From Lasiosphaeris hirsuta (lineage: Eukaryota > Ascomycota > Sordariomycetes > Sordariales > Lasiosphaeriaceae), in NCBI GenBank assembly GCA_030549175.1, contig JAUKUA010000008.1, positions 1 through 64,000 of the forward strand: a stretch of DNA of 64,000 nt, read 5' to 3'. Below are positions 12,717-59,739 of this stretch, in pieces. Position 1 is the first letter of the stretch, and each line of letters opens with the position of its first letter. The notes below the pieces were generated by a model. The model did not search any database. It was not told the origin of the DNA and worked only from the letters and a program-made list of their open reading frames with translations. A program made the translations under genes and the position numbers.

Positions 12717-13190
12717 GGAGTCATAATGCTAGGGGTAAAACTTAAAATCAAGACACATGTACTTAGCTAGAGAGACGGTCAGAAGAAACGTTACTCACAC
12801 AGGGAGCAATGTAAGAGGGCCTACTAAGTATTTAGCCAACCTCTAGTACTTCCGCATATATGCGCCAGTTATGATCAACACCAGCTGTTTGATAAGTCTA
12901 GCTATTATTCCTCATTCAACTATACGTAAATTAGAGTTGATTGAAATCTATACTAAAAATGAATGCCCCACACCTAAAAAACGGTATTGTTGATCGAATT
13001 GTACCCAAGTACAGTTAATTAAAATTGCTTTGGGCTACCGCAATGAGAAGTAGATGTATCGATGGAGAAAGATTCAGGCTAACACTATAAATATAACTCC
13101 TACCATAATTACTATGAATATTTTTATAAAGAAGTTAGCGGGAATTAAATAACGATAAAGGTATAATAATGTGTCTCTAGGAGGAATTAA
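12717..13190. other. AT-rich intergenic DNA
   Basis: No reading frame or motif is visible. The stretch from 12840 to 13190 is AT-rich and RIP-like, and it marks the point where the neighbouring HeLo pseudogene is cut off. Confidence 0.5.
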
Positions 13191-16677: not shown

Positions 16678-18830
16678 ATGCGGCTCCTCCGCACAGATCT
16701 CTCGGCAGCAGGCCACCTCCAGCTCTGCAACTTCGTCGGCGACCAAACGCCCAGATATGCCATCCTCTCACACACGTGGGGTGAAGGCGAAATCACGCTC
16801 CAAGATGTCGAGGCCGGTCGCGGACTGGGCTCGCCAGGCTACGAAAAGGTCAAGAACTGCTGCCCCCGCGCAAAGGCCGATGGCTTCGACTACGTGTGGG
16901 TTGACACGTGTTGCATCGACAAAACGAGCAGCGCTGAGCTTTCGGAGTCTATCAAATCATGTACTGGTGGTACTAGGATGCTGAGATTTGCTATACATTC
17001 CTAGCGGATATTCTCTCGTCAGGGTACGGCACGTCTCCGTTGGCAAGCAACACGCCCTCGTCAGCTGTCGGCATGGGCGGTCGGGCCCAAATCCCATTCT
17101 CAGAGAGCCGGTGGTTCACGAGAGGATGGACGTTGCAAGAATTAATCGCTCCCTCAGAGATCATCTTCGTCGACTAGCAGTGGAATAATTTAGGCACCAA
17201 GACAACCCTTCAGAGGCCCATCTCAGCCCGAACAGGCATCCCTACTTCCATTCTCGCCGGGGGCGGAGATGGACTAGGCACGGCGAGCGTGGCGCAGAAA
17301 ATGTCTTGGGCTGCCAAGCGGCAGACCACCAGGGGCGAGGACACAGCCTACTGTCTTCTCGGTATCTTTGGCGTCAATATGCCTCTTCCTTACGGAGAGG
17401 GCCAGCGGGCCCTTATCAGACTGTAGGAAGAGATCACCAAGATACGGACGATCAGAGCCTGTTCGCCTGGCGATCCGACGACTGCCGCGGCGGCCTCCTA
17501 GCAACCAGCGCCGCTACATTCCACCGCTCGGGGGACATTGTACCGTGTGATCTCGCTGATTTAAGCAACGAACCTGTGACCATCAGTAACAGGGGGGTTT
17601 GCATAACTCTTCCTATCATCGGGCTGGGCGACAGTGGTCTCGTATTGGGCGTGCTGAGTTGTGGTTACTCCTCGGAATCCAACGCCGGCGTAGTCGGCGT
17701 TTATCTCCGTGATACGCTCCTCACCATGGAAGGCTTTAAGCGTGTTCACCCGCGGTAGCTTGTGTACATTGACGTGGCAAGTTGCAGCCCCTCCTAACGC
17801 CAGGCTAGGAGGATACACGCCAAGTTGGAACGCCTGCAGAGCGGCCGGAAGATGCCACAAGAACCTGAACCGGAGGCACGTATAGAGACTAGCATCCAAG
17901 ACGTCGCGATGGAGAGGCGGATAAGACTAGCCCTAAGAAGAGAGAGGTCGGTACGGAACAGCTCCCAAACTAGAGAGTATCTGTTTAAGGCTGCGATAGA
18001 GGGGGACGACGATGGAGGCAAGACGGCGCTGATTCATACAGCACAGTCTGGACAGACTAGCACAGTATGGCTTTTGTTCACCCGGAGCGATGTCGAAGTT
18101 GACTCGGCCAGAGTGGACGTCTATGAGAGGGCGAATGGGCAGGACCTTCTTAGCTGGGCCATCGAAGGTCAAGGTTGGGACCTCGTGAGGAGTTTGTTGA
18201 GCACAGCGGATCTTGTTGAAGTTGAACGGGAGCACGGCCTGTCCGGGAGAACCCCCCTTACGCAGGCTGTGTCGATGGAACAAGAATGGTTAATAGACTG
18301 GCTCCTTAATAAGTCCATCGACGTTAACATAAGAGACAGAGACGACATGACGCCATTAGCTACGGCGGTTACAGTCGGCAACTTACAGATCGCCAACAAG
18401 TTACTCCAACGCGGCACCAAAGTCTATTCAGAAGGCCGTGAAGGTGGCCGCACAGCACCACTCATCCTAACAGTGAAGAAACAAGACGCGAGAATACTTA
18501 AGCTTCTACTTGAACATGTTTATGTCTAGAAACAAAGCCGAGGGATCTTAAGATGCCTCTCTCTAGCTATCGAAAATGGCCATGAGTTAATTGCCCGCGT
18601 TTTACTGGGTAAGGGGGCAAATATCAATAGAGACGGCAAAGACCTTTCACCTCTCTCTGTGGTAGTTTAACATTACTAAGAGTCTATGGTACGACTTCTG
18701 TTAGACATGGGTACAAGGGTCGACAAAGTAAGTTCCTCTACCTAGGCACCGATAGTCTAAGCAATCTACCGCCGTAACGAGCCCATATTTCGGCTGCTAC
18801 TGGCTAGTAGTACCCAAATCAAGCCCCCTA
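16678..18830 (+). pseudogene. Broken HET-domain protein with C-terminal ankyrin repeats
   Basis: ATG 16678 opens MRLLRTDLSAAG. The HET signatures follow: YAILSHTWGEGEITLQDVE, YVWVDTCCIDKTSSAELSES, then in a shifted frame (from about 16958) SRWFTRGWTLQELIAPSEII, SVAQKMSWAAKRQTTRGEDT and AYCLLGIFGVNMPLPYGEGQ. Near 17430 the frame shifts again and continues DDQSLFAWRSDDCRGGLLAT. Then come ankyrin-type repeats: GRTPLTQAVSMEQEWLIDWL, MTPLATAVTVGNLQIANKLL, CLSLAIENGHELIARVLLGK and ESMVRLLLDMGT. Stops lie at the W-Y-stop-DAE site (about 16975), at about 17175, at 18527-18529 and, increasingly often, after 18660. HET proteins trigger incompatibility cell death, and ankyrin repeats are a common sensing part. 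The 3' end fades into AT-rich DNA near 18830. Confidence 0.85.
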
Positions 18831-29919: not shown

Positions 29920-32095
29920 ATGAACACTGCTCCAAACCCCAACCGTATGATGAGTGATCTCGCATCGCAACCCGAGCCCCCGCAACGGGGCCTCTCTAGT
30001 AGCTCTGACGGAGGCAGCAGGTTAGTTCTTTCAAGTTTAGAGTAGCGGTAAAGCCTATTTATGCTGACATCAAAACCTTATTTTGCCCAGAGCCACGCTA
30101 CCTCGCCCGGATCCCCCAGAGGACTGTAAGGGCTGCCGGAATCTGCACCCGAGTCAGTTTGACAGCGGAGAGGTGCGGACGAGCCTCAGAAACGTCGTCC
30201 ATGAAACTCAGCATAACATATAGTTTTGGCAAATCGTTGAGAGCGCAAAGCACGGTTGCGCCGCTTGTTCCGTCATACACAAGGCCATTCAAGGAGTATC
30301 CACGGTTGCGCCGCTTGTTCCGTCATACACAAGGCCATTCAAGGAGTATCAGGTGGCGTCTCGAACAAGACCGAGATTAAACTCCTCTGCCGGGGTCAAG
30401 ACAATAAAGGTTTGGATATTGAATTTGCGGGCCCCGACGACCGGAAGACACGACTCGAAGTCTACACAACAGCTGGTAAGCTCAGACTCAGACTCCAACA
30501 CCAACTAGGGAGCGCTCTTCAAATACTAACAAGTAAACTCGATAGAATCCCGACCTCGCTGGCCTATGATTACGTCTGGGCGGTACAGGAACGTTTCACC
30601 CGATTCTTCCTCGCCCGCCTGCATGGATTTGGCGCGATTGTGGCTTGACGACTGCGCCAGAAACCACAAATCCTGCCGAATAGGCTCCTCGCCCTTGCCA
30701 AAGAGAGTGCTTCATGTTGGGTCCGATGAAGCCGAGCCCAGGCTGCATATTTCCTGTGGGGAGCAGGGGAAATACATCGCATTGAGTCACTGTTGGGGGG
30801 ACAGGTCCCTATTGATGACGACCGAAAATGCAACGCTGGAGCAGAGAGAACAAGCGATTCCCTTTGTCCATCTGCCCAAGACGTTCCAAGACGCCATCAC
30901 TGTTGCCCGTGCTCTCGGCATCGAATACCTCTGGATCGATTCCCTCTGTATCGTCCAAGACGATGAGGCCGACTGGGACGAGGAGTCCATGAAGATGGCC
31001 GACATCTATTCTCACGCCACTCTCACTATATCCGCTGACGACGCAAGCAATGCGACCGAGGGGTTCTTGGGCCTCCGAAATGATCCTCGAGCGAAGATGT
31101 CCATCCCGATAGCATACTCAGCGGAGCTAGGACACGAGGACGGTACTATTTACGCCCGGCGAGGAGCAGAGACAAGAAAACGAGAGAAATACGACAATGG
31201 GTTTTATGCGCTAGCAGACACCCACGTTGGGGCGATGACGGTACACCACCTCGATACGCGAGGCTGGACATTCCAAGAACGGTTGCTTGCCCCGAGGACG
31301 CTTCATTACACTGCGGCAGAGATGGTATTTGAGTGTAAAGAGGACGTCAACTGCGAATGCACCATTTCATGGGAAAACGACATCTGGTTGGACCCCAGCC
31401 TCTACAGCTCTCTTGTTCCTCCTACAGTCTCGTTATTCAAGCAGCTCGACTTGGAACCCCCCAACAGCCCCATACATGACTACAGCAGGTATTCTCCTGT
31501 ACGGTCATCTCCTATATGGTCAACGATCGTTCAGAACTTTACATCTAGAAATCTCACTTTACCCAAAGACCGACTTCCTGCCGTCGCCGGAGTCGCAATG
31601 TCATTCCAGCCTTATACTGACGAAGACTACTTGTATGGCCTATAGTTCCAAAAGCTGAGCGACAATCTTTGCTGGAACGTTCCTCATTAGACAAAATCTC
31701 GACGCCAGCTATGGGAATACGCGCCAACGTGGTCCTGGGCCTCGGTGACTTCCCGAGTATCCTACCCAATATCGGAATGGGTTGGGGGCACAAGTTCCAT
31801 GCATGAAATCATTCGTGTGGACACGAAGCTTAGATCTAGTCGCTACGGACCTGGAGAAGGTTCTATTGATCTCCGTGGCTGGATTGGGCCTGCTGTTGTT
31901 CAGCCCTCATTGTCTATCGCATTCGTGGCGTGTCGGGGTGGGAGAACGGTCAAGACATATATTTTTCCACCTACCGAAGTGCTAAAAGGTGGTGAGTTTG
32001 AGGTTACGTTCTTCCCCAATGTTACGGACTCAGCCGAAGTAGCTGACGGGGAAACCGTGACATTGCTTTTACTATCCTTATTAGGTAATTCATGA
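29920..32095 (+). pseudogene. Broken HET-domain gene with intact HET core
   Basis: Exon 1 is 29920-30020, an intron ends at 30090, and exon 2 begins 30091. A second intron probably ends before the frame that is open from 30566. Exon 2 has cysteine pairs (CKGCRNLHPSQF, HGCAACSVIHKA). Exon 3 gives ARLWLDDCARNHKSC, YIALSHCWGDRSLLMTTENA, IEYLWIDSLCIVQDDEADW, MADIYSHATLTISADDA and RGWTFQERLLAPRTLHYTAA, which is a full HET domain. After TAG at 31643-31645 the frame continues through a second TAG (31688-31690) to LWEYAPTWSWASV and the usual C-terminal region, ending TGA 32093-32095. Lesions are TAG at 30221-30223, a 50-bp duplication at 30251-30350 that shifts the frame, and the two late stops. Expected role when intact: trigger of incompatibility cell death. 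Confidence 0.85.
30251..30350 (+). repeat. Exact 50-bp tandem duplication inside the HET gene
   Basis: The 50-bp unit beginning CACGGTTGCGCCGCTTGTTC and ending AAGGAGTATC is present twice in a row without a mismatch (30251-30300 and 30301-30350). Fifty is not a multiple of three, so the second copy throws exon 2 out of frame. Confidence 0.97.
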
Positions 32096-33888: not shown

Positions 33889-34080
33889 GTCCTACACTTT
33901 TTCTGGTGAGGCATTTTTACTGATTCACTGCACCACATTGAGCTAGCACTTGCCCCGAGAAACTCTGTTTGACGCTTCGTTTCTGTGAATCCTTGTATGC
34001 CAACTACTCTCCACTGCCACCTCCTTCAAGTGACCGAAAAGCTCAGTCCACCCACACCTATACCCGCGGACAACAAGAAC

Positions 34081-36375
34081 ATGGCACCAGAGTCTGTGGG
34101 ACAATGGTTACAGCCGTTTGAGCTCAGCAACGTCGCCGTGCACGCTAGCCTGCTGCCCAATGGCAAGGTGCTCTACTGGGGCCGGCGTGAGAACCCCAAG
34201 AGCACCGACCTGTCAACACTCGATGAGCACGCCACCAAGGCGTTCGTCTGGGATCCCGTCGCCAAGACAAGCACTCCTACGGCCAATGAGCCCCGCGACA
34301 CAAACGGCAACCCCGTGAATCTCTTCTGCTCCGGCCACAGCTTTCTTCCAGACGGCACCCTCCTCATTGCCGGCGGCCATATCAGGGATGGCCGAGGGCC
34401 CAACCAGGCGTGCGTCTACGACCCAGAGACCAACACCTTCACCCCTAAGGCCCCGATGAACAAGGGCCGCTGGTACCCCTCCGTTCTGACCCTGCCTGAT
34501 GGTCGTGCGCTGGTTATATCGGGCAGCTATGATGAAGCTTTCACCGTCAACAATATCCCGCAAATCTGGCCCTCGGACACGGGGACGGCGAATCCCGCAG
34601 CCTGGATCGAGGTGACGGATCCGCTCAACCAGTTTGGGGGGCACGGCCCGATTTTCCCCCTCTACCCACGGCTGCATCTCTCTCCCGAGGGGCGCATCAT
34701 CATCGTCGGGCCGCTGGCCGAGTCGTGGTGGTTGGACGTCAAGGACCCCGCGACAGGTGCCGACATTGAGACGCCTGTCAACGTGGACGGCGTCGGGAGA
34801 CAATCCGTGGTCGGGAGGTGGACCGATGCCGGAACGTCGCGCCAGGCCATGTTCCGCGACTATTGCCCTTCGGTCGTGTACGACACGGGCAAGATCATGT
34901 ACATGGGTGGCGGACTGACGGTGGACAATGACCCGGCGCCTACCAACAAGGTCGAGTTCCTCGATCTGCACGGCGCCCACGGTCCGCCAGAGTGGACCTC
35001 GTCGCCGCTGACCAACATGAGAGTCGAGCGCAGACAGTTCAACGCCACAGTGCTGCCCGACGGCACCGTCCTGGTCACCGGAGGCACCAAGGGGTCCGGC
35101 TTCAACGACCTGTCGCGGCCGGTCCACGATTCCGAGCTGTGGGACCCCGTCGCCAAGAAATGGACCGACATGGCCCCCGAGAGCGTCAATCGCTGTTACC
35201 ACTCGACCGCGCTGCTGCTGCCCGACGGGACCGTCCTCTCGGCCGGTGGCGGCGAATACGGCGGTGCCGGGCCGGACCAGTGTTTGACTAACGCGCAGCT
35301 GTTCGAGCCACCGTACCTGCACAAGGGCGGGGGCCGGCCCACCATCGTGAGCGCGCCTTCGGAAATCGCCTACGGCCAAGACTTTGCCGTCACCATTGGT
35401 CCCAGCGTGCCCGGCGGCTCCATCGACACCATCGACACCATCAGCTGGGTGCGGCTAGGCTCCGTCACCCACACGCGCAACATGAGCCAGTCGCTGATGT
35501 TCCTGACGGGCTTCAGGCAGGCTGGGGCAAGCCTCACTGTGCCCGCTCCTGCCAACGCCAATCTCGCGCCGCCGGGGCATTACATGCTCTTCGTGCTGGA
35601 CAGGCGGGGCGTACCTTCGGTGGCCCGCATCATCCGAATCGCGGCAACTCCGCATGCGGCTGCCACGCCTGCGCCTGCCGGTGAGCCCCCTCACGGCCTG
35701 TTGTCTGATGCCGTCACGGCCGAAGCGGGACCGCCCGCGCCTCCTCCTCCATCACTCCAGCCCACCCTCGGAGAGCACAGCGAGAGGATCGTGGCCGAGC
35801 AGAGCCAGCCGCCCGTCGTCGTAGGCCTCACGCCAATTTGCCCATACGGCCTCGGTCCCTGTTGGGGCGGGGCGTACGATGCGCTGCGTCGGATCCCTGA
35901 CATCGAAGTCGTCAACCCGGTTCCGAACCAGGCGGATTCGGTTGCCTTTGTCTACCCGACAGAGGGCGACATGCTCCCCGACATTGATGTGTGGCGCAGA
36001 GAGCTTGCGCGGACGGTCAATAGCTCGTACGAGATGCGCGGTATTGAGATGACGCTCTCCGGTGTCGTGACCAACACCAATGGGCAGGTGACGCTCGCCG
36101 CGACACCGGCGCGGCCACAATCTTTGCTCCTCGCTCCGTTCAAGCAGGCCAACCAGCTGAAATGGGACATTGAGGCCAGGGCTGCGAGGCCGATATCCGA
36201 CATTGAGGCAGGCGCATACCAACGGCTTCATGACGCGTTGGCACACTGTCCGACGGGAGCGGCCGTAGATGCGCAGGTGACCGGGACGCTACAGAAGAAT
36301 GGCCCCGCTAAGTTTTCTCTCCATGTCCGACAGTTCGAGTTGTTAGATGCCGTCGCACCTGCCTCTGATCTGTGA
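34081..36375 (+). CDS. Radical copper oxidase, galactose/glyoxal-oxidase-like, with extra C-terminal domain; intact
   Basis: A single open frame without introns gives 764 residues from ATG 34081 (AACATGG context); an earlier in-frame ATG at 33997 has a poor context. Kelch-type beta-propeller repeats run to about residue 400 (LPDGTLLIAGG, LPDGRALVISG, LPDGTVLVTGG, LPDGTVLSAGG), and the E-set domain (DUF1929 type) spans about 415-520. All copper and radical ligands of the family appear present: Cys83 (LFCSGHS) and Tyr132 (GRWYPS) for the thioether pair, Tyr373-His374 (NRCYHST) and His464 (VTHTRN). A Pro/Ala linker (521-575) leads to an unassigned C-terminal domain with CPYGLGPCWGGAYDAL (587-602). 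The family oxidises alcohols or aldehydes with release of hydrogen peroxide. No signal peptide is seen, which is odd for a normally secreted enzyme. The gene is visibly GC-rich and uninterrupted amid mutated DNA, so late arrival or transfer is possible. Confidence 0.92.
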   Translation: MAPESVGQWLQPFELSNVAVHASLLPNGKVLYWGRRENPKSTDLSTLDEHATKAFVWDPVAKTSTPTANEPRDTNGNPVNLFCSGHSFLPDGTLLIAGGHIRDGRGPNQACVYDPETNTFTPKAPMNKGRWYPSVLTLPDGRALVISGSYDEAFTVNNIPQIWPSDTGTANPAAWIEVTDPLNQFGGHGPIFPLYPRLHLSPEGRIIIVGPLAESWWLDVKDPATGADIETPVNVDGVGRQSVVGRWTDAGTSRQAMFRDYCPSVVYDTGKIMYMGGGLTVDNDPAPTNKVEFLDLHGAHGPPEWTSSPLTNMRVERRQFNATVLPDGTVLVTGGTKGSGFNDLSRPVHDSELWDPVAKKWTDMAPESVNRCYHSTALLLPDGTVLSAGGGEYGGAGPDQCLTNAQLFEPPYLHKGGGRPTIVSAPSEIAYGQDFAVTIGPSVPGGSIDTIDTISWVRLGSVTHTRNMSQSLMFLTGFRQAGASLTVPAPANANLAPPGHYMLFVLDRRGVPSVARIIRIAATPHAAATPAPAGEPPHGLLSDAVTAEAGPPAPPPPSLQPTLGEHSERIVAEQSQPPVVVGLTPICPYGLGPCWGGAYDALRRIPDIEVVNPVPNQADSVAFVYPTEGDMLPDIDVWRRELARTVNSSYEMRGIEMTLSGVVTNTNGQVTLAATPARPQSLLLAPFKQANQLKWDIEARAARPISDIEAGAYQRLHDALAHCPTGAAVDAQVTGTLQKNGPAKFSLHVRQFELLDAVAPASDL

Positions 36376-37321: not shown

Positions 37322-39501
37322 CTACTCCTCAGGCTTTGACGCCTCAACTACCAACTTCTTCAACTCCCGCGCCTGTTCGCGCTGTCCAGAGAAATGCACG
37401 ACCCAGCCAAACAGCTTGTCGTCCCACTCCTGTACGTGCTGCCCCGTCCCATCCCCAAAATCCGAGTCTTGCAGTTTATCGATGAGGTCCGTCCGTCCCA
37501 TCGACTGGAACCATGTGCACAAGGTCGTATAGGCGCTGTCAAACGCGCCACAGATCCAGGCATGATGGGCACTGAGCGCCTCGCCCGCCAGGGCAAAGTG
37601 GTAGCCAGCGGGGTCGGAGTTGTCTTGACAGAAGAGAGCTTGGCAGGGGGAGTAGATGTTCTGGAACTGACCGGGACCAAAAAGGGCAAAGGCGCCGCCA
37701 GTCCAGGGGTCGTGCGACCAAGCCTAGGCGTGGTAGGGACCGAAGTGGTCATTGGGGTCGGTGACGACGAGGTCGTACAGGTCCGAGAATTGCAAGGGTG
37801 GCGTGCTTGACTTGAACAGCTGGACGAGGTCGTTGAGGCAAAGCGTGACAAGGGGGTCATCGCGCGTCCGCGTCACGCCGGGGACGTTGTAATCGGCCAC
37901 CATCGAGCCCATGCGAGTTGCGTCCTGTGCCCACGAGTAAGACACCATCAACACCGCGGGACCATCGCCGTCGTTCCATGATGGATAGACCACGTTGCTG
38001 ATGGGAAGGTCGCTCGACGACACGCCACCGATGATGTTGTACTTGGTCGTCCACCACGCTTCGGTGAACTTGATCGCAACTTTCGTCGCCCGGTCATAGC
38101 TTAGGCTACGGATACCATCGAGGACGTTGTTCGGTAGATTGAGACCCGAGATATCCATGCGCTGCAACGGGCCCATGGCGGTCGTGTTGAAGACCATGTC
38201 GTATGTTGCCGTGCTAGCGGAAGATGCAACCGACACAGTCTGCGAAGTTGGGTTAAAGGAGTAACCCGTCACCGGCGTATTGAGCGTGACATTCCACGCT
38301 GCTGGCTGAGAGACGGTCGGTGGCCAGCTCGTGGATGCGAGCATCTGTGCCATGGTCTCCGGCACCAACTGCATACCTTCCTCGATGCGGTACCAATCCT
38401 TGTCCTTGATAGAGGCATTCTTGAAATCGGCGTAGTCAATCACCGTTTCAGTCAGCGCTTGGTCGAAGAGTCCCGTCGAGCTATATCGGTATTAGCTCCA
38501 AATGCTTGGTACAGGCGCGGCGCGGCATGCGGATTAGCACTTACGTATCGTTCAGCTCTGCCATGGCTGTGTCGGAGTAGGACCAACTTCAAGACCGTCA
38601 TCAGCGAGGAATTCAAGCATCACAATTCGGTTCCTGGGCTGGCATAGAAATTAACTTACACGGTTGGAGTGGCTTTGTTCATGAGCCACGTTCTGGTCGA
38701 GTAGTTGTTCTGTAGATCAAGGGTGCTGTTGTTGGGTCCGGGTAGGTAGGATCGGGAGTCGGCTGGAGCCAGTCGGCAAAGGCCTGATCAAAGTCGGCAT
38801 CCTCTGAGAGGAACTCACTTGCCAGAACCGACATGAGATTCTCAAAGGGTTGATCGCTGACCCAGTTAGCACTCATAGCGCCAATACGAGGCAAAGGAGG
38901 TGAAAATTCCCGTAGCAACTAACAACCAGCGGAAGTAAGTACTTACGAGATCGGATCGTTCTTGTACCAGTACGAAACTGGAACCGCATTGTTGCTGTAA
39001 ATATACGGCGGAGTCTGGAGATTGAGGGTTTTTCGAATGAAATTCAGCGTTCTGTAATTGGGTATGAGTTAGCCAAAGGAAGTCAATACTATAAGCAGTC
39101 ATGAGAAGGGGGGCTTGCCCAGTCATCCAAGGCAGGGGCGGAATGCGCATGGCGCCAATGTCATAGTAGAAGTGGTCATCGATCTGGCCGTTCTGAGGAG
39201 GAGGCTCCGTCTTCTGCCACGTAAAGCAACGACCCCCAACACTGCCAGTGGCTTCGACAATGTTGACGTTGGTAAATCCCAGGTACTTCAGGGCCATGGC
39301 CATGTACAAGCCGCAGGTGCCCGCACCAACAATGCAGATGTGGTCAGAGAGCACGTCGCGGTTCACCGAAGGGACTTTCGGAAGTGCCGGGAGACCTTTG
39401 CTTGGGTGGTGGTCTGGGTGCTTCAACAAGAACTGAGAGAGAATATCCCGATGCAAGACTTGCTTTGCGTGGGCCGCGCGAATGGATGTTGCTGGCGCCA
39501 T
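37322..39501 (-). pseudogene. L-amino-acid-oxidase-like flavin amine oxidase, nearly intact but with one stop and one frameshift
   Basis: Minus-strand exons are 39501-39119, 39051-38947, 38856-38660, 38586-38545 and 38480-37322, about 628 codons. Introns 2-4 have GTAAGT donors. Intron 1 (67 bp) begins GC (GCAAGC) and has a CTAAC branch-like site. The FAD-binding GAGTCG is at residues 59-64 and EATGSVGGRCFTW at 83-95. Later blocks are YWYKNDPIS, STGLFDQALTETVIDYADF, WYRIEEGMQLVPE, then WTGGAFALFGPGQFQNIY and YHFALAGEALSAHHAW, the last of these the C-terminal FAD region. Exon 3 lacks one base (around 38730, in the PDPTT/PNNSTLDLQ stretch). TAG at 37724-37726 interrupts an otherwise conserved region. 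The family oxidises amino acids or amines with FAD, giving a keto acid, ammonia and hydrogen peroxide. The light damage suggests recent loss or sequence error. Confidence 0.85.
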
Positions 39502-41676
39502 GTTAAATCCCCGTATCAGATTCTTGTAGTGTTTGATTAAGGAAGGGCTATTGTGGTGAGACCTGCTCTTGATATAACAAAGGAGGGTGTTCAATGTGAA
39601 AAAGCATGCATCTTATAGCTCTTTGCTCCTACAGCAATAGATGGGCTCTCGTGAATATTGTGAAGCTGCCGGTGCCGCCTAATGCGACCCTTCGGGAGGT
39701 AAGGTTGGTGGCTAGCTGAGACGGCGTTTTGGCATGCCGGCGTTCCGCGGGGTCATGTTCTCGGCCCCCGTGTGAGACCGCGGCTTACATTCCCCAACCA
39801 ACAGCACGTCAGGCCTCAAGCCACTCATGCACCTCCAAGTTTCAAGACCGAAACCTGCCCGCACCAGTTCAGTTCAAGTGCGAAACTAGAAACGGCCAGG
39901 AACGGAAACCTGCAGTTGCCCAGGGCGAGCTGAAAGACAGTCCTCGGCTGTGGGACAAGAGCCGGAGAGGACCCTCCGACAGAGCGGTTATGCAATCCGT
40001 TGAAAGCAACTGGGAATGTCTACCTCTTCGGCATACCTGGTGAAGTGTTTTGAATATACTGCTTACATCATCTCCTGGCAATCCTGGGTGTGGTTGGCGG
40101 AGTCCTGAATGACGAACAACTTATCACCGGAAAAGAGTCCTAGTCAACCAATACGCAGTAGACTACTGATCTTCTGCATATGTATTGTACACATAATGAA
40201 AGGCTTAATATTTGAGGCTGAGTTTAGAAAGGCACTTCCGATCCAAGAGAGTCAACAAATCACATGTGATGTGAGCGTCCAGAAGAGCCTCCGTTTTGAT
40301 TGACCATCAACCGAAACCATCGGGGTAATAAACCCGTATTTATAGTATCTTGACTTATCTATCTCCGGCGGGTTTATAAATAGGATAGAGTGGATTATCA
40401 TTCAGGGGAACTGTAATTAATATAACCCGGCCTAATTTTAAATAAGGCCCAGGACCGCAAATATTCCTTTGGTAACCCGGTTTCGCTTATTGGGTTCCAG
40501 AGACCTATAATATATGCCTCAATAGATAATAACCTAGTTAATAATATATATCAAGACAGATAAGCCTTTTTGTAAGTACTTAAAGTAAGGATCCTTCGTG
40601 TAAGGCTTTTAGAGTTAAGGCGAGCTAGAAGGATAGGCTAGATTTTAAGTTGGTTAGAAGGACCGATCGTGGTTGTCAATCTTGCTAGCCCGTAGCATAA
40701 GCTATTCTCGTTCCCTATACATTGCAGGTCGCCGGATCTCTTATCATGTCATCTTACCTGAGCTGATCATGCCGCCGCCACCGCCTCTGCCGCCTCTGCC
40801 GACAAAAATGTACTAAACTTACCCCGCTCTTTACGAGAGTTAGTGTGCGTCTTATGCGACGAGGAAATAGCTTGGTTGTATGAGACGAATCTAGGTACCC
40901 AAAATTTCCATTTTCGTTCGTAGCTCTAAGCTGGGTTAAGCTGTGACTGATCTGTCCTCCCCTGATTCGTCCCTGAGCTAGGATGATCCTATACGCGGCC
41001 GCTACATAGCCACAGTAGCTCGTTTTCAGTCCCCCCGACTATAGTTTCGTTGTGATAGAAAGTGGATAACGCGCCATCTATAGGAATGGCTCCCAGGCAA
41101 CAGTTCCAATTACGATGTAGGCGTGTGCTGAGTGTTATGTATGTTGAGCGGGAATTACACCGGCATTTCCAAGCTCTCGGCTTTGGGTGTTGAACCCCAT
41201 TTGAAGCGGTTGGTGGGGGTGGCCTATGAAGGAAACGGTCACATATCATGAGGTTTGAAATGCAGTGGCAGTTTCCAGGTGATTTATTGCAGGGTTAGTG
41301 CATGGACGAATCGGTCGATAATTGGCTCACTCCCTCTGCGAGTGCGGGATGTGTCATTTCGGGCGCTTCACGCGTGGGTTGGATAGGATGAGGCTGCGGG
41401 CATTGCCATGCGCCATTGGCACAAGGGGGGTGGGGAGAGAAGTCAAGCGGTGGTGTGTGTTTATTTGGCTTTTGACAAAGGGAAAGAACGTAAACAGAGC
41501 TCTCTTGACACCTTCCTGGGGAGCCCCGTCACTTTGCAGCTGTTCAGGCACTTACACCCCAACATTGCACCCTACCTCCAAGATGATTTAGACTCAGGCA
41601 AGTTGATAACCAGCATTTCCATATATCATCTTTCCCCTGCAGTCAAAACCAAACAAAGTTGTGTACGCAGCGTGCA
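39502..41676. other. Intergenic, partly RIP-like, no recognised gene
   Basis: 39502-39700 is the likely promoter of the amine-oxidase gene. 40200-40700 is AT-rich. A short GCC-rich run (CCGCCGCCACCGCCTCTGCC, near 40770) is a simple repeat. 41280-41676 is the upstream region of the permease. No ORF here has a known motif. Confidence 0.45.
40858..40918. repeat. Dispersed repeat family A, partial copy 3
   Basis: AAATTTCCATTTTCGT, preceded by a GAGACGAA(G/T)CT block, matches the left half of 24173-24306. The rest of the element is not present here. Confidence 0.5.
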
Positions 41677-43369: not shown

Positions 43370-44673
43370 TCAAGCTTGTGAGAAGAATTGACACTCTGCC
43401 CACCTCCGCTCGCGAAAAGGCATATCCTTGCCTCCTCTGGCCCTGCTGCCGTCCTCCTCCGCCCTCCACGCATAGTATTCACCCAAGCGGCCCTCAGCCA
43501 ACGTAGTATAATCGAAATTGATTTGCGAGACGGCCGCTTGGAGAAGAGCCCATAATCCACCATAAAGACCAGGCATGCCACGGTATCGGTCAACCTCCTC
43601 AAACAGCGCGTCGAGCATGAGCCCCGGGGAGGGTGCTTCGCCGCAGTGCGCCTTGAAAGACTCGAGGTAATACTGGAGGAATCGACGGCGCACAGACTTG
43701 GTTGGGAGCGCGCTGTAGTCGCAATCATAACCGGCCCATTCGGCGAAATGGTTGGCGATGTCGAAGGCTGCTGGGCACGGTACGGCGTACTCGTAGTCGA
43801 TAAACGAGACCCTGACTTCGTCATGAGCAGGGTCCTTGGGGAGCAGGATGATATTGGCGCTGCCAAGATCGCAGTGGCCCAAGACAAGTCTGTCAGACTC
43901 GGAACCGCACTGGCTCGCTTTGACAAGATGGCGAAATGACCGATCCAGTTCGATCTGAAGAAGTTGTTTCTGGGTCTTTTGCGCAGGGGAGGCGCAAGGT
44001 AGGGCGTTGGTCCACCTTTGCATCACAGCCCAAATGTCCAGGACCGGTGATTTGGATGAGAGATCAGAACGAGATTTATTAGACTGGGGGTCAGCACACT
44101 TTGCCTCAGCGGCCATATTGGTAGGCAACCGCGCATGCCATTCACCAAGATGTTTGGCAACAGCCCGCCAGACAGGCTCTGTGATGAGGTCTTGAGGGGT
44201 ACAGGTCTGGCCAATAATGTACCTATACAAGACTCCATTCTTGCATCTCGCGAGCAGAGGCGGAGCGAATCCGTACTCAGCGCAAACGATATGTGTCGCC
44301 ACATCCCGGTCGCGGTCGATAAAGTTATCTGACCCGTTGCCATATGCACGGATAAGCACAGAATCTCGATCATTGTCGGTCTGTGACCGTCCAGGGACGC
44401 GTTTGGTGACTTTTAGTAGCTTAGGACAAAGTTAAGAGTGTGAGTAAGAGGTAGGTCCCGATGGATAGATAACTTAGCTAAGGGACTCACTGTGTTGGTG
44501 ATACCGCCCATGAGCTGAACTACATCAATTTCTCCAGTCTTTTCACACCATTCTGGGTGTATTGAGTAGGCTAAATTGGAGGCTGACTGGTAAAAGTTGT
44601 GGGGATCAAAGGTGAGTTCAATGCACCGCAATCGAGTAGCGTGCCCATGGGTGGGACCAAATGAAGCCATCAC
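43370..44673 (-). CDS. Ethanolamine/choline kinase family protein, intact, two exons
   Basis: Exon 1 is 44673-44491 and exon 2 is 44419-43370. The intron of 71 bp has a GTGAGT donor and a CTTAAC branch-like site. Joined, they give 410 residues. QLMGGITNT at the exon junction, then LLKVTKRVPGRSQ and RAYGNG, are the nucleotide-binding N-lobe of ethanolamine kinases. PVWRAVAKHLGEWHARLP follows. The catalytic loop is LVLGHCDLGSANIILLP (Asp235) and the metal-binding loop FIDYEYAVPCPAAFDIANHF (Asp259). The enzyme phosphorylates ethanolamine (or choline), the first step of the CDP-ethanolamine branch of phospholipid synthesis, in the cytosol. FIDYEYA...FDIANHFAEW favours the ethanolamine-kinase branch, but substrate choice is inferred. 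Either of two adjacent ATGs (44673 or 44670) may start it. It ends TGA, 217 bp from the convergent permease relic. Confidence 0.92.
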
Positions 44674-45023
44674 CGAGTGCCCACTAAAGATTTAGGAGAG
44701 GATGGGACGGCAATGAAACTAGCAGGAGTTTGGAAAATATAGCGTGGACGATGGGGAAGATGAGAATTACCGGGACGTAGAAAGATGGCGGTGAGATACA
44801 GGACCATGACAGTGCCTGAAGGGCTAATCGTACCCCTTTAGATTACCTCTCCTACGCCCCTTCATCTATATTTAGCAGGATGCCCAAGCTTGCAATATCT
44901 TAACCAACAGAGAGCGCCTCAGGACACCGTAGGCCCACTTGTTTTAGCTAGTCAAATTGCGCACATCCCCCAGGGTTAGGGTTGTCAAAATTCTACTACA
45001 CTCGTGCCACCACGCCACCACAA
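44674..45023. other. Upstream region of the kinase, up to the LINE 5' end
   Basis: This stretch should hold the kinase promoter on the minus strand. A TTAGGGTT word and CCACCACGCCACCACAA lie directly before the LINE start. No gene is seen. Confidence 0.4.
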
Positions 45024-45192
45024 GGACAGTAGCAGCTCTCTCCCTTCTTTTATTTTTTTCGAAAGAATTGGACCAATCACAACGCCGGGACTAGCTATCC
45101 CAAAACACCACAACCTGATCACGACCTTTTTTCGCCTTCGGGCACCCCTCTCCACCCTGACAACTCGCGCGCAGCACGCGTAAGCTCTCAAC

Positions 45193-46740
45193 ATGGCGCC
45201 TGAGCAACGCCCATTACACGCCAACCTGGCCGACTACGCCAGGAAGCTACAAGCCGAACACGACGCCGAGTACCTGGCGAAGTGGGAGGTCATTAAGACC
45301 CTCTCCGAAGCCCTAGATCAGGGCTTCGCGAAAATCCCCAGCGGGGAACACCACGTTTACTAGGGAAGGGAGACCCTCCTTAGGATCAAGGAAGTGATCT
45401 ACCGGACCGTAGGAAGGGCAAAGACCCCGACAATGTCGGGTTCCACGACCTCGCCCATACCCTCGCCCTACGTAGGCATTGACAACGGCTCGATCCAGAC
45501 GCCACCCCCGGGAGCCTACGTGGCACCAACACTAAGGAACGACAGGGCCACCTATTTAACTAACCTAACCCCCCTGACGGGGACAGTACTACCACTAACC
45601 CCGTTAACCGACAAGACGGCCTAACTAAGGGTCGCCATACCACAGGCCCAATCAGGGGCCGCCACGACAAAGGCCGCTAACCTAGCTAACGAATGGAAGA
45701 CGGCCCCGGTAGGAAAGACCTCAAGCTAGGTCTCTAAGGCAACGACCCTAGGAGGGCTAACCACTATCGACCTAGGTAGGAAACCTAAAGTAAACGCTAA
45801 GCCCGGTACTAGACAGAGGGATAGGTCTAGCTTATCGGTACCTAACAAATTGATACTCACAGTACCGGCCGAGTACCTATAGGCTTAAGCGATAGCCGGA
45901 GAGATCAGCCTAGGACTTCCTAACATGATAGAAATAAAGCCGGTAGTAATAAAAGTTACTATCAAGGGAAATAGATAGTCAGTCTTCCTACATAAGAGAT
46001 ACTAGGACAAGAGGACCGAGGCTATGACAAAGGCTAAGGTAGTAAGGATACTCCTCTAGGAAAACGTAGAGTAGATTACCTATACCCTAGAGAAAGTACC
46101 GAAGATAACCATGACCTTAGAGGGACCTCGTAAGATCACGGAGGTCATGATAAAACAAGAGGCATAAGTCTCGATAAGGATCTTACCTATGTAAGTGACC
46201 TAGACTAAGAACGGGATATAGCTAATATCGTTCGACGATACTTATATCTTTATAAAGACCTTTAGGCTATTTAGATCTATAATTACGAGGAGACTTCTAC
46301 CGAAAAGGAAAGTCTTACTGTATAAGACGTACTATAGGTTCTATTAGATAAGGGACTATATAGTAAAGGTAGTATGTGGTAGGTATAACCATAAGGAACA
46401 TATAAATAAGTACCTCGACCTACTATAATATCTTAACTACTTAGGACTACATAGGCTCGATAATATAGGTACGTATATCTTAAGGCTAAGGGTTATAAAC
46501 GAGAGACGGCTTCTATTCTCTAGTAAGATAGACATCGAGGAAGGAAGGAAGGTAGGGACTAAGGCCTATAAGGACAAGGTAACTACCTAGGAGAAAAAGA
46601 AAGCTAAGGAGACGAAGAAAGTAAAGACTATAACTAGGATAGCCGTAGAAAAAGAGGTCTCTAGAAGTAGAAAGGGAAAAACCTTTCTAAAGGCCGAGGC
46701 TAGGGCCGAAGCTAAGGCTAAGGAGGCTATAGTAGTATAG
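45193..46740 (+). pseudogene. LINE ORF1 (gag-like) remnant
   Basis: ATG 45193 starts MAPEQRPLHANLADYARKLQ. One TAG (45361-45363) precedes an open stretch to 45624 that is Pro/Thr-rich (IQTPPPGAYVAPTLRNDRA). Farther on, near 46370-46460, VVCGRYNHKEHINKYLDLL looks like CCHC zinc knuckles in which Cys codons have become Tyr (TGT or TGC to TAT or TAC), a RIP-type change. The product would bind the LINE RNA. The 3' limit is a guess because stops are dense. Confidence 0.7.
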
Positions 46741-47549
46741 ATCGCCTTACCCTTATAAGATTAAAAAACTCCGGTAAAAACGAAGTCAACAGATATCTAC
46801 GGAACGACCCCTATCCTAGCTCCTACTATATAACTAGAAGATATCTCTCTACCGACCATCGAAGATAAGGAAATGACAAAAGCCCCCGAACCCACGGGTA
46901 ATATCAGAACCTTGGCAAATGATATAACATTTAATACCTTAAAGGTCTTGATTACATATAGTATCAACATGATTATAATAAAGAAATAACTCAAAGAGGC
47001 CCTGGAATAAGTAACCTAGGAAACCGTGAAGGTAATAAGCGAGAGGGCCGAAACCTACGACGAGGAAAAGCTAAGAGTACTAAAGACCTACGGAAAAAAG
47101 CTTTAAGTAACGGCCGAGAGATACGGCCTTAGAGTCGACTAGATGTTAATGGCTAGAGCCATAATAATAGCGGCTTAAGACTAGGGAAACTAAAAGCCGG
47201 CCGTTAAGACTAACCTTAAATCATATTTCTAAATAATATATAAGACCATGGAAATCGACAAAGACATGGACTAAGAAGATATCCGAGGTACCTATTAGGC
47301 AGCCCAGTAATAGAGAGAAAAACTATTTCAGAGTATATAAATATATCCTAAGGAATAGGTAGTAAAGAAGGATACCTAGGTAAAACTGATTAGAGAGGTA
47401 ATCGGACTAGGAAGACCTTCGGTAAAATTATCTAGTAATAATATCCCGTCTAGGAAGCTACTATCGATACTGACTCTACGAAAGATAATAGTAATCTCGA
47501 TTATAAGGGATATCTTCTTTAGAAATATATTATCTAACCCTTAGAAAAG

Positions 47550-50500
47550 GAGGTACGTCCGAATCCTATAGCAGAACTTACTTTTGATCGTACATAGACA
47601 TTAGAAAGCTAGTTTCTTTCCTAGGTCCATACGATTACTATCTCCCTTCCTACTAAGTATCTAATAAGAGGAGATAGAATTAAAGACTCTTACCTACAAA
47701 TAATCAAAGTCTTAGTAAGAAACGTTACTAAGACCTTTACGTATTACGACTTCCTACTTAACTAAGGAGCCTAAGGTAAGTACGACCTAGTTCTCGTCTA
47801 GGAACCGTAATATTTAGTAAAGAGTGAGGAGACGAGATTATACCTAGCCTATATAGCTATGGTAAGAAACAGAACGTACGGTAGGCTAGGGGTAACTATT
47901 TATTATATTAAGGACTAGGCCTAAGAACTAATAAGTAACTTCTGATTAGGGGATATAGTAAAGGTTAAAAACGATAGGCTTCGAGTCTTCTTAGTTTATA
48001 AGAACATAAGAACCTAACCCTCTTATATTTAAGAAGTCTTAAGGATAAAAGGGAGAGATAAGAAGTTCTTAATCATAAGAGACTTTAACACGGGATATTT
48101 ACTCTGGTAGGCCGGGAGGTATATAAGGTTAGTAACGGAAGCTATAATTACATAGGTAAACAGAGAGGGACTATACCCTCTAATCTAGGATATACTAACC
48201 TGGGGAAGGAACGTCTTAGACCTAGTATTTTACTCAGATCCGTAGGCTTATAGTAATGTCGAGAAGGATAAGACTATAGAATCGGACTACTTACCTATCG
48301 AAGTGACGATACCGGGAAGGACGAAGTAAAAGAACCTTTTATAGAGACTTGGCCTATATACATTAGAGGACTGGGTGACTAAGACGAAGGAGAAGGTTCG
48401 AGACCTTTCTACGAAAATAAACGGAAGGTAAGAAATAAAAAAGGTTACTTAAAAAGTTTAGGAAGCTATAGAACGGCTGTTATATAAGTATAGAAGGAGA
48501 GGATAGTTTGACGGAAAGAGGTAACTATAGTAAAATAAAGAACTTAAAGAAGTAAGAAAATACCTTTAGGTAGCTAAAGACTAAGGAGACGGAAGAACAT
48601 AAGCTTTAGTATAGGCGGTATATAAAAAAAAGGTTAAGACTATCTGTACGAGATATTAACACGGGAAGGTCTAAAAGGTATCTAAACTAAGGAACCTATA
48701 AAAGGTGATAAGATAATAGGAACGCTAGGTACTAGTAGACACCCTCCCGAGCCTCTTTCTAAGGGGAGGGGACTTAGTAAGCTATATGGTAGCATATATA
48801 GTAACTATTATCTACGATAAGTTAGTAATACTACGGTATAGATCTGACCTTATAGACGCTAAATACTTTAGTATCTTATAACTTAGACTATTATAATATA
48901 TCTTATAAAGTATCGAAGTTACCGAAGAAGAAGCTTACTAGGTATACTATGGGATACGGACGACGGCGTTAAGACTAGACAAAGTAACAACGGCTATATT
49001 AAGAACAGCTTAGTATAATGAGATAATAAGCTTAAGAGAAAAAGTAACTAAGACTTTCTTAACTCTTATAGTTATGTTTATTATCTTATATAAAGCTTAC
49101 CTATAGGTAAGATAGTACCCTAAGGTATAGAAATATATAAAAGTAGTACCTATTTCTAAGGTAAGATACTCTAAAGTGACTACGAAAGGCCTTAGACCGA
49201 TCTCACTCTTACTATATATCGGTAAGGGCTTAGAGAGATTAGTAGTAAGAAAGATAGGTATCTTAGCTATGTAAAAGAGCCTTATCTACCTATAATATAT
49301 AAGTAAGGTATTATAATAGTTAGCTACGGACTTACTAACGGTAGTAATCTATGACGTAGAAGATATATAAGTAAGAGGCCTTATCATAGGGGTAGTCACG
49401 GCTAATGTAAAAGATATCTTTAATATAGTATAAAAGTAAAGACTAAAGTAGAAGCTTATAGAGACGAGGTAGGACCATACCATAGCCTACTTCTATATTA
49501 CCTTTCTAACAGACCGGGTAGCTATAATTAGAAAAGACTTAACAGAGACCTAACAGCTAATATTAAATAAACTATCATAAGACTCTCTCCTCTTACTTAT
49601 CCTCTTTACTTTATATCTTACGATAATAGTAAAGGACGACTAAATCTACTATTATACAGATGATGTCACGGTAGTTATAACGGATAAGATAGAGAAATCG
49701 GTCTAGGCTAAACTTATAACGAGGCTTAGGAAGCTTCTAACCTAAGGAAAAGATAACGGAATCTCTTTCGATAATATAAAAAAAGTAAGTATATCCTCTT
49801 TATGCCGAAGAAGGGCCTAAGACTAAATATCCTTGTCTAAGGAGTCGTTATATTATATAAGAAGATACTCTAGTAGTTAAAAGTATAATTCGATCTAATA
49901 TTCTACTTCAGAGTATATACGAAGATAGTAGTAGCTAAGGATAAGCTAACGACTATACTTCTAGACTATATCTCTAGTAAAGTCAAAGGGTTAGTCCTAA
50001 GGCTCGTAGTCTAGGTAGTTAAGACGATCTTTCTACTAACGTTACTATATACGGTAGAGGCATGGTATAGTTAACGTAGAAAATGTTTCGTTAACGACAC
50101 GTTAGACGTAGTAGTTAATAACGGCCTTTAAGTAGCATTACCGGCATAGAAGACTATAAGAACCGTGGTATTACATCTAGAATCTAAAGTCTCTATGACC
50201 TAGTACCTCGTCAAGGCCCGGAAGGACACCTTTACGAGAAGGCTCATCCGGCTAGGCTGGACGTATCCGGTAGTCCGAAAACTACATAAGCTATGTACCC
50301 TTAGTAAGAAGAACGACACGTTCCTCGAGAAGATCATCTACCACGTCGGCGGGACACCCCCCCTACACGATAACTTCTTCTAGATAAGAGACATCGGAAG
50401 AGAGGCCCCGATAGAAGCTATAGCCGTAACTACCGCCTTAGATAGAGAATGGAGGACACGTTACGCGGAAGAAAGGAAACGCCGGCTATAGTGGTACTAG

Positions 50501-50850
50501 TGGGACGGAGCCTCCGAGGACTATCGGTACTGGAAGATCTATTGGAAGGACAGGCTACCGGAACTGGCCCTGTCTTATAAGGCCTACATAGCCTTATTGG
50601 CGGAAAGGACCGGCCACGGGAACTTCAAGGAGTACCACGAACGGTTTAACCACAACCCGGAAACCTAGGGACCTTACAAATATAAAACTCACAAGAACAG
50701 AAGACACATATTCACGTGCTCACTGAACGTAAGAACGCTTCCCAGCTACAACGGCAACCCGCTACAGATGGTATGGAGGAAGTCTAAGAAATGGCTCGAC
50801 CTGTTCGGGGGCTTCGCGGATAAATTACCAGAAAGAAAATACTAGTAACA
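47550..50850 (+). pseudogene. LINE ORF2 (endonuclease and reverse transcriptase) remnant
   Basis: The apurinic-type endonuclease is visible near 48060-48310: FLIIRDFNTGYLLW (family GDFN, with Gly to Arg), RNVLDLVFYSDP and ESDYLPIEV (family SDH, with His to Tyr). Reverse transcriptase blocks are near 49180 (GLRPISLLLYIGKGLERLV) and near 49650 (YYTDDVTVVI, family F/YADD, with Ala to Thr). The C-terminal part is more open: FTRRLIRLGWTYPVVRKLHK, then ERTGHGNFKEYHERFNHNPE (about 50610-50670) and a later region where the family has a Cys/His finger. All these replacements are transitions expected of RIP. The start of ORF2 could not be set. Confidence 0.8.
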
Positions 50851-51215
50851 ACGAAAGCGGGAAGAAAATACTACGTAGACTGACGCTAAAGAAGAGGCCC
50901 TGGCCGGGGCCCCAGCAAATTAAGAAAGGATGGCTTTTCCCCACGGGGGTTTTTATATATCTTAGACTGATGGGTGAGCGAGCCGGGCGGGTAAGGCCCG
51001 GAAGCGGCATTTAAAGGGGTGCTAAAGGGGTACGAAACGCGGGGGAGCGTGGTACTGTCGGCCCGGGGACCCTGGGCCAGGACTCTCCTATCGGTGGACT
51101 CAGGGCGGAGGATCTCCTTATTGTAGAAGGCCGTGTGCCTCAGGCGTTTGCGGGGACTTTGAGAGCCTCGCTGTGCGATTGCCCCTGCGGGGCAAAACCC
51201 TGCACAATAAAATTT

Positions 51216-51230
51216 CAATCAATCAATCAA
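51216..51230 (+). repeat. (CAAT)n 3' tail of the LINE
   Basis: CAATCAATCAATCAA follows AATAAAATTT and ends exactly where GGACAGTAGC of the next LINE copy begins. Simple-sequence tails of this sort are usual at 3' ends of I/Tad-type LINEs. Confidence 0.85.
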
Positions 51231-51828
51231 GGACAGTAGCTCTCTCTCCTCTTTTTATTTTTTCGAAAGAATTGGACCCATCACAACCTTGGGATTTACT
51301 ACACCAAAACACCACACCTTGATCACGACTTCCCTTCACCTTTAGACATCTCTTTATACCTTGACAACCCGTACGTAACCCACGCTAGCTTCTACCGTGG
51401 TACCTAAGCAATGCCCACTATACACCAACCTCTCTAAGTTCCTCTTAGAACTAAAGGCCGAATACGACGCCGAGTACTTAACTAAGTAAGAGGTCGTCAC
51501 GATACTCTCCGAAGCTCTCGACCAAGATTTCAGTAAGATCCCCAAGGGCGTATACCATGTACGTTAGGGAAGAGAGACCTTCCTTAGGCTTAAGGAAGTG
51601 ATCTACTAGACCGTGGGGACTACGGAGACCTTAACCAGCTCGGGCTCCTTACTAGGCCCTAGCCTAAAGTCCAATGTAGGTATCGACCACGGCTCGATTT
51701 AAACGCCGCCACTGGGAGCCTACGTAATACCTATACTAAAGAATGATAAGATCTCTTCCTCTACGAAGCCCCCCTTACCTACTAGCTCACTAGGAGTAGT
51801 CCTACCATTAGCCCTCTTAAGATAAGCT
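51231..51828 (+). mobile_element. 5' end of a second LINE copy, cut off
   Basis: Starts GGACAGTAGCTCTCTCTCCT and follows 45024-45640 base by base with scattered transitions and small indels (TTCGAAAGAATTGGACC, CACCTTGATCACGACTT, and the ORF1 start region with ATGGCGCC changed to GTGGTACC). It stops near 51828, where an LTR-like sequence begins. It is more RIP-mutated over ORF1 than the first copy. Confidence 0.85.
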
Positions 51829-52059
51829 AACACACAACCCCCTGGCACCCAGGCCACACACCGTCACGCAAACTCCCTCTATCTCGAAGTAGCCATTCAC
51901 TAGAAAAGCAAGTGGTCCGAGCAGCCCCAGGACTCCTATAAAGGACTTGGATCTGACAACCACTTGTTCTTCTTCACCCTCTCTTTCCTTAGCTTGTTTT
52001 TGCGCAATCTAGGCTAGGACATTGTAGCATTGTCTCTCTCTTCCTTCCCTGCCGTGACA
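51829..52059 (+). mobile_element. LTR-like sequence, copy 2 (solo)
   Basis: Matches 15057-15330 in order and ends TGCCGTGACA like it. No second LTR or internal retrotransposon region is nearby, so it is a solo LTR or a fragment. It interrupts or abuts the second LINE copy. Confidence 0.6.
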
Positions 52060-57699: not shown

Positions 57700-58049
57700 C
57701 GTTGCTTTGACTTGTACTAGTTAGGGTAAAGTCTATACACATACTAGGCTATTGTTTATATATATATTTCTATCTGTATAGTATGTTACGTTTGTTAAAT
57801 GTTGTTCTTCCAGCGACGTCCTCTGTACGCTTACATCTTAGAAGCCCACACCAAGTATCAATCCTAGTAGAAGGTTAAGTCAAGTTTGCCAAACAGTAGT
57901 GACCGACGTTAGGAGGCAGAGTCTTACCAAAGGTAGAGAACAAAAACTAGTTGAGAACGGTCAGCCATAATTTTGGTAGGCAGTACCTAAGCGCTCTAAT
58001 GTCAGTAGGACATATTCAAGGAGTAGATTCGTCCAGAAATATTCATGGA
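57700..58049. other. Intergenic, no gene seen
   Basis: AT-rich DNA with a short TATATATAT run at about 57758-57767. Confidence 0.4.
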
Positions 58050-59480: not shown

Positions 59481-59739
59481 CCTACCCTACCCCTCCTTCC
59501 TTACCCGTTTTTTTTTTCTCCTTTCCCCTTCTCCCCCCTACCTACGTAAACCCAGTTCCTATCTACGTCCTCGACTCCGGCTATATTACTTAAGATCGAT
59601 ATATAGTGAGATGGGGACCTCGTAGTTAGTACTTAAATCTCTCTATGTTCTTAAGAAGCCCGGCGTTACTTTCTTCCTAAGGATGCTGTTGCTTAAGCTA
59701 CCTGATCAGCTCGGCGTACTTTTTACTCCGTGGTTTGAT

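Follow-up and report, generated by a model that had tools for sequence, protein, structure and literature searches.

A copper radical oxidase of Lasiosphaeris hirsuta with a predicted two-part C-terminal domain that may supply its metal

Our analysis of 64,000 nucleotides of DNA from the ascomycete Lasiosphaeris hirsuta (hereafter the window, which forms the first 64 kb of the 957,171-base contig C13 in a 44.4-Mb genome of 14 contigs) centers on one gene, whose 764-residue product joins a copper radical oxidase to a C-terminal tail. The tail, a domain not previously described, may load the enzyme with metal. Structure modeling divides it into two parts, a half predicted to resemble the HMA fold of copper chaperones and a half predicted to form an OB-like beta-barrel. 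Read directly from the sequences are the fusion, the intact ligands of the oxidase, an invariant cysteine pair in the tail, and the co-occurrence of oxidase and tail in both fungi and bacteria, including as unfused adjacent genes. Coordinates are collected in Table 1.

Table 1. Parts of the oxidase-tail gene and other recognizable frames in the window (counts out of 124 refer to the conservation alignment described in the text)
Feature	Position	Strand	Basis or remark
Whole coding sequence, 764 aa	34081..36375	+	single open frame
Copper radical oxidase core, residues 5-520: kelch propeller and GO-like E-set domain (Pfam 419-520)	34093..35640	+	Pfam, PDB sequence matches, AlphaFold2, Foldseek
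C83	34327..34329	+	aligned with galactose oxidase Cys228; kept in 124/124
Y132, Tyr272 equivalent (cross-linked radical tyrosine)	34474..34476	+	alignment; kept in 124/124
Y373-H374, Tyr495-His496 equivalents	35197..35202	+	alignment; each kept in 123/124 (1 gap)
H464, His581 equivalent	35470..35472	+	alignment; kept in 122/124 (1 gap, 1 Gly)
Linker, residues 521-559, Pro/Ala-rich	35641..35757	+	pLDDT <50 at 526-530 and 532-547
HMA-like (copper-chaperone-like fold) half, residues 575-656	35803..36048	+	predicted fold
Cysteine pair C587 (35839-35841) and C594 (35860-35862), motif CPYGLGPCW	35839..35862	+	invariant in alignment
OB-like beta-barrel half, residues 656-760	36046..36360	+	predicted fold
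DJ-1/PfpI frame	11981-12742		Pfam match
Ankyrin-repeat frame	17798-18526		Pfam match
HET frame	30530-31642		Pfam match
Amine oxidase (two ORFs)	37727-39612		Pfam match
Choline kinase frame	43373-44431		Pfam match

By its sequence, the protein is an AA5-type copper radical oxidase, with the Cys-Tyr pair, the copper ligands, and the kelch and GO-like E-set domains all present. Pfam matches up to residue 520 comprise kelch repeats, Glyoxal_oxid_N and GO-like_E_set; PF09118 scores 85.3 bits (cut-off 25) and PF13964 75.5 bits (cut-off 25.3). The AlphaFold2 model of the core has a mean predicted local distance difference test score (pLDDT) of 93.2, and Foldseek matches this core to galactose oxidases and GlxA, with an E value of 2.7e-41 to 9g43. 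A first-pass annotation of the window, made from its letters alone, had described an intact gene, without an intron along its 2.3 kb, with five metal and radical ligands. Both points hold, as the frame is open for all 764 codons and C83, Y132, Y373, H374 and H464 align with their counterparts in galactose oxidase and GlxA. The counterpart of C83, which forms the thioether cross-link, is one that we take to be Cys228. Conservation was read from an alignment of 124 sequences, the window's included, picked from 147 proteins, and all five cofactor residues are also kept in 17/17 bacterial sequences (L004-L018, L020, L021). Trp131, immediately before the radical tyrosine, is kept in 124/124, as in GlxA. 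A stacking Trp290 is a mark of galactose oxidase; the corresponding residue here is Y150, and no Trp occupies this position in any of the 124 aligned sequences (Y in 19, F in 38, S in 20). Because the position is so variable, the substrate is not readable from the sequence.

The C-terminal region has no Pfam match and is absent from NCBIfam too. The first-pass annotation had called it novel; it is not unique to this gene, as 92 proteins, the window's own among them, carry it. An exact-term literature search, with most subscription papers outside its reach, found no description of the tail domain or of its fusion. PMC11267884 cites a reference that names a fusion of an AA5 oxidase to a CE3 domain. 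The C587 and C594 pair is kept in 124/124 aligned and 17/17 bacterial sequences. Six residues separate the two cysteines in 242 of the 253 proteins that show the motif pattern and nine in the other 11, so that CX6C or CX9C stands in place of the CXXC metal-binding motif of HMA domains, which is absent.

Comparison of the predicted fold with known structures matches the first half of the tail to HMA metal-binding domains and finds the OB half similar to binding barrels. The first half is predicted to follow the order beta-alpha-beta-beta-alpha-beta with a cysteine ahead of the fold's first helix, and it has no Pfam HMA match: PF00403 was found in none of 18 tails at an E limit of 5, with HMMER filters dropping most matches above 0.1. 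The tail produced no Foldseek match below E 0.001, and a search of PDB sequences with the tail profile gave chance-level matches only (E 1.2 or worse). Local hhalign comparison of the tail with three HMA domains scored 18.0, versus 14.5 for a reversed control and at most 13.1 for eight shuffles, at a probability of only 4%; global hhalign against the same domains gave nothing. The placement of the tail relative to the oxidase is taken solely from the predicted template-modeling score (pTM).

Our search with residues 525-764, whose reach was limited to proteins 0.55 to 1.75 times the query length, scored 7,995 candidates and produced 92 proteins, one of them the window's own. Oxidase domains are present in the Pfam columns of all but one. 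The exception, P0131 from Elasticomyces elasticus (915 aa), is a subtilase (S8) with the tail domain at its C-terminus; by eye this tail resembles that of the Elasticomyces oxidase P0110, which suggests either that domains were swapped recently or that the gene model is a chimera. When GTDB genomes were scanned with the tail alignment, 17 of 48 pattern matches were confirmed, corresponding to 17 bacterial loci in seven phyla, many of them metagenome bins; a scan with the window protein alone confirmed 0 of 10. Hosts include Chitinophagia, Nostoc, Pseudonocardiales and Pseudonocardia, Mycobacterium, Geodermatophilus, a metagenome-assembled genome of Actinomycetota, Acidobacteria, Verrucomicrobiota, Acetobacteraceae and Planctomycetia. 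Tail and oxidase share one frame at 16/17 loci, and in 5/17 the oxidase has a GH13 amylase domain ahead of it, as shown by tblastn with the amylase part of P0084, where NCBIfam names an amylase. A Sinorhizobium meliloti plasmid also bears the fusion, 41.7% identical over 98% of the window protein. The genomic association of tail and oxidase is strong. Other N-terminal extensions precede the oxidase in P0072, P0081, P0136, P0139, L010 and L014, those of L010 and L014 looking alike; none of the six has a Pfam match beyond the oxidase part. No relative occurs in 50,697 phage records and a tail scan of viral contigs confirmed 0/18 pattern matches, and a phage origin was rejected.

Some planctomycetes carry the two parts unfused. 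At one Planctomycetia locus (L019), the oxidase (6143-7813) begins with a signal-peptide-like stretch, and so does the 211-aa tail protein (7902-8537) encoded 88 bases after it. The tail occurs in 3/297 Planctomycetia genomes of a tool-drawn sample that includes this one. All three have it directly downstream of a same-strand oxidase, which gives the sole GO-like E-set match found in each genome; the stretch taken from the second genome stops within the oxidase. Because planctomycete oxidases fall inside the bacterial group of the tree described below, the split is probably secondary, and the tail persists there as an independent partner. A profile search for short tail proteins gave 130 matches, of which 120 were listed; a hydrophobic signal-like start, judged by eye from the N-termini, is present in 21 of the 28 retained by a filter on length and start.

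Among 100 fused members, a hydrophobic N-terminal stretch above threshold is found in one (P0006), where a second likely start lies behind the stretch. This was a hydropathy screen rather than a signal-peptide predictor, applied to members with a Met start and the core within 60 residues, and those whose core is preceded by fewer than 12 residues were scored as lacking such a stretch. The fused oxidase is apparently non-secreted and would be located in the cytosol, although it might leave the cell by unconventional secretion.

These features suggest a mechanism in which an apparently non-secreted AA5 oxidase is covalently joined to a module for metal loading. In the oxidase part (residues 5-520), Y132, Y373, H374 and H464 would bind Cu(II), with a C83-Y132 cross-link, and this part would oxidize a primary alcohol group, probably on a sugar, to an aldehyde while reducing O2 to H2O2. 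In the HMA-like module, C587 and C594 may bind Cu(I) from the copper pool of the cell. The module would then hand the Cu(I) to the oxidase site, where the cross-linked cofactor forms, and the OB-like barrel could keep the module against the oxidase. The tail would play in cis the part that CCS plays for SOD1 and Sco for GlxA. The fold is a prediction, and copper binding and transfer by the tail are suggested by that fold together with the genomic linkage. For the mechanism as a whole we consider the evidence evenly balanced.

Copper is needed for the Tyr-Cys link of GlxA, which stays immature without Sco when copper is low (PMC4736821, in the part accessible). A Burkholderia ambifaria plasmid (NZ_CP086300) carries a galactose-oxidase-like gene, ending before a tail, whose 3' end overlaps an SCO-family gene by four bases. 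The requirement of GlxA for Sco, together with an SCO gene in Burkholderia where planctomycetes keep the tail gene, would make the tail a second way of meeting this need, as an integral part of the enzyme. More broadly, and more tentatively, the tail may be a dedicated metallochaperone for copper radical oxidases. It would act in cis where the fungal and bacterial enzymes are intracellular, and in trans in planctomycetes, where it is a putative secreted partner. It would then define a cytosolic, H2O2-producing branch of AA5 that is tied in bacteria to alpha-glucan hydrolases and haem peroxidases.

Bacterial neighbors were compared by tblastn in 20 stretches (L004-L021, L046, L047; 3-17 kb). 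Because these stretches are short and the queries were chosen from the same loci, absences and rates are no evidence. Animal-type haem peroxidases were recognized by Pfam in four (L006, L013, L016, L019). Six whole genomes, those four included, contain 0 to 3 peroxidase matches each and 14 control genomes contain none; in a fifth genome (G003) a peroxidase lies ~16 kb from the oxidase. GH31 genes adjoin the oxidase-tail genes in 3/20 stretches (L010, L019, L047), and a GH13 gene follows in L006. Such arrangements suggest a chain from alpha-glucan hydrolase to oxidase to peroxidase in some bacteria. For the fungal enzyme we infer an alpha-glucan-related substrate, but this may differ from the bacterial one.

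Further genes were seen at these loci. A protein of ~330-345 aa lies beside the oxidase-tail genes in 5/20 stretches (L020:2265-3257, L004:10721-11752, L009, L014, L016); the two that were read contain W[RK]G.GFN.IWRP, and the two that were scanned have no Pfam match. The Lasiosphaeris genome holds one relative of it at C12:38419-39204 (41%, E 1.8e-24). In Verrucomicrobiota (L021:8718-15009), a GH13-oxidase-tail fusion lies beside genes for a LodA-like protein (below Pfam cut-offs), a halogenase-like flavoprotein dependent on flavin adenine dinucleotide and a ferritin-like protein. The Nostoc locus with haem peroxidase and oxidase also encodes a PAP2 protein with weak matches to vanadium chloroperoxidase (L006:12752-14113).

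Instead of delivering copper, the tail might be a structural or docking domain that contacts a haem peroxidase, an alpha-glucan hydrolase or a polymer substrate, with its cysteines forming a disulfide or a structural site. The likeness of the OB half to binding barrels fits this alternative, as do the haem peroxidase genes in 4/20 bacterial stretches, the GH13 and GH31 enzymes fused or near in some, the one fusion to a subtilase (P0131), and a CX6C spacing that differs from CXXC. However, the first half is matched by metal-binding HMA domains, and the fused proteins are apparently non-secreted, given that the simple screen found a hydrophobic N-terminus in 1/100. Disulfides are less likely in non-secreted proteins. 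We regard a purely structural or docking role as doubtful, yet as a serious competitor to copper loading.

A different concern is that the gene might be decaying or silent, since it lies in the first 64 kb of a 957-kb contig with blocks damaged by repeat-induced point mutation (RIP). This is very improbable, because the frame is open, all ligands are intact, the RIP index is negative and the Lasiosphaeria orthologue is 87% identical over its full length. That orthologue starts with MAPESVGQW, equivalent to the start at 34081, whereas one database gene model (P0002, 792 aa) starts at an in-frame upstream ATG at 33997. Lasiosphaeria hispida provides the best named match of the 764-aa protein, and the next ones come from fungi that we take to be other Sordariales. 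Within its own genome, a DNA search recovered the gene and two short matches, and a protein search gave eight: the gene itself, several weak matches to oxidases at other sites and, on contig 11, a relative that is broken and diverged. The latter (C11:1787034-1788051, minus strand; locus L002) is spread over three frames with stops and covers part of the tail. Among the proteins compared, a Cercophora newfieldiana homologue matches it best, and a strong RIP signature was not found over its 3.2 kb locus.

The first-pass annotation also raised a transfer from bacteria or a recent arrival as possible explanations, citing a high GC content and a gene free of RIP between broken flanks. The GC content is indeed 0.640, versus 0.488 for the window, and the RIP index CRI of the gene is -0.73, which is no RIP signature. 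The flanks are less damaged than had been thought: the interval 36-37 kb is mildly AT-rich (CRI +0.32) and the amine oxidase lies in two ORFs (open reading frames), either broken or intron-bearing, but 28-34 kb (CRI -0.25 to -0.57), which contains the open HET-domain frame, and 37-40 kb, which contains the amine oxidase, are not RIPed.

Third-position GC (GC3) is 0.774 in the gene, compared with a mean of 0.65 (standard deviation 0.08) in 40 background ORFs; 5/40 reach its GC3 and 3/40 its GC. The background consists of stop-to-stop ORFs of at least 250 aa, taken from 14 stretches of ten kilobases each in the genome; they are unverified as genes and may include antisense frames. Codon preference correlates at 0.93 with the pooled host ORFs, whose own 5-95% range is 0.36-0.88; the kinase frame reaches 0.48. 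This correlation and the spread of background GC3 indicate that the gene is GC-rich yet host-like, a host-typical profile in codon use and a rather high one in GC3.

The oxidase tree (82 rows, 500 columns, LG+C20+F+G4 by PMSF) places the window protein well inside Pezizomycotina, as sister to Lasiosphaeria hispida with support of 100/99. All 40 named fungal rows form one group at 87/63, below the tool's mark for firm support, and the 20 named bacterial rows form one group at 100/100; 18 rows without an organism name fall on both sides and are excluded from these counts. The tree is rooted between the bacterial and fungal groups by four outgroup oxidases (99/94), at least two of which sit on branches flagged as long. 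A fifth, from Cupriavidus, was dropped for want of a BLAST match in the frame taken. Four rows have unusual composition.

Recent transfer from a bacterium into this fungus is accordingly extremely improbable. The GC of 0.64, the lack of an intron and the Sinorhizobium relative would fit it, but the Lasiosphaeria orthologue and the tree position contradict it, and the host-like codon preference and the broken, diverged copy on contig 11 also stand against it. Bacterial kinship is real, given the plasmid relative and the 17 loci in seven phyla, and because the same oxidase-tail pairing occurs in other fungi and in bacteria, the gene is neither a recent arrival nor unique. We think it rather probable that one old transfer between bacteria and Pezizomycotina, in either direction, founded the fungal family, with vertical and patchy inheritance since and intronlessness perhaps a family trait; this origin is compatible with copper loading by the tail. 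It agrees with the separate fungal and bacterial groups and with long single-frame relatives from JGI/ENA records, in which gene calls usually ignore introns. Against it, support for the fungal group is modest. Because long-branch outgroups set the root and the composition of four rows is unusual, the transfer may have gone either way. A fungal origin has been proposed for Streptomyces GlxA (PMC3543389, in the part accessible).

Elsewhere in the window, CRI is intermediate at 25-28 kb (+0.37 to +0.44), and RIP exceeds our threshold at 2-3, 45-52 and 58-61 kb. Single kilobases of the blocks 45001-52000 and 58001-61000 show TpA/ApT up to 2.04 and GC down to 0.32. Among six ORFs scanned, the HET-domain frame and the amine oxidase pair are the nearest to the gene with Pfam matches.

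The window protein shares the kelch and E-set domains, the Cys-Tyr pair and the four copper ligands with the galactose and alcohol oxidases of AA5_2 (1gof, 9g43, 5c86). It is 25-30% identical to these enzymes, which have no HMA/OB tail, and the position of galactose oxidase Trp290 is Y150 here and variable in the family. Known galactose and alcohol oxidases of AA5_2 are secreted, and copper acquisition and Tyr-Cys cofactor formation have been studied in secreted galactose oxidase. If our proposal is true, the attached module, found in Pezizomycotina and seven bacterial phyla and separate in planctomycetes, would allow copper loading to be compared with and without it. The view of AA5 oxidases as extracellular enzymes would be challenged, and biocatalyst production might be aided. 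GlxA of Streptomyces (4unm; NF052501) has in common the Trp before the radical tyrosine. The window protein scores 204.2 bits against the GlxA equivalog NF052501, below the cut-off of 800, and the match stops at residue 520, model position 644 of 645, where the model ends with the oxidase part. Maturation of GlxA requires the copper chaperone Sco and the peroxidase DtpA (PMC4736821, in the part accessible). The secreted alcohol oxidase-peroxidase pair of Colletotrichum (PMC9770985, in the part accessible) likewise combines a copper radical oxidase with a peroxidase; here, in contrast, the peroxidase is a neighbor in some bacterial loci only, and the oxidase has a tail.

For the tail itself, the HMA domain PF00403 (CopA, PacS, Atx1, MerP, CopZ, RAN1) may share the order of strands and helices predicted for the tail and the cysteine before the first helix, whereas the tail has no Pfam match, a longer loop between its cysteines and an OB-like barrel after them. 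CCS (6fp6) is at rank 11 among Foldseek matches to the tail, with an E value of 0.012. CCS is a separate protein with a CXXC motif, in which an HMA domain is joined to a second domain and which inserts copper into one enzyme, SOD1. The module described here differs in being part of the enzyme, or the product of an adjacent gene in planctomycetes, and in having CX6C or CX9C.
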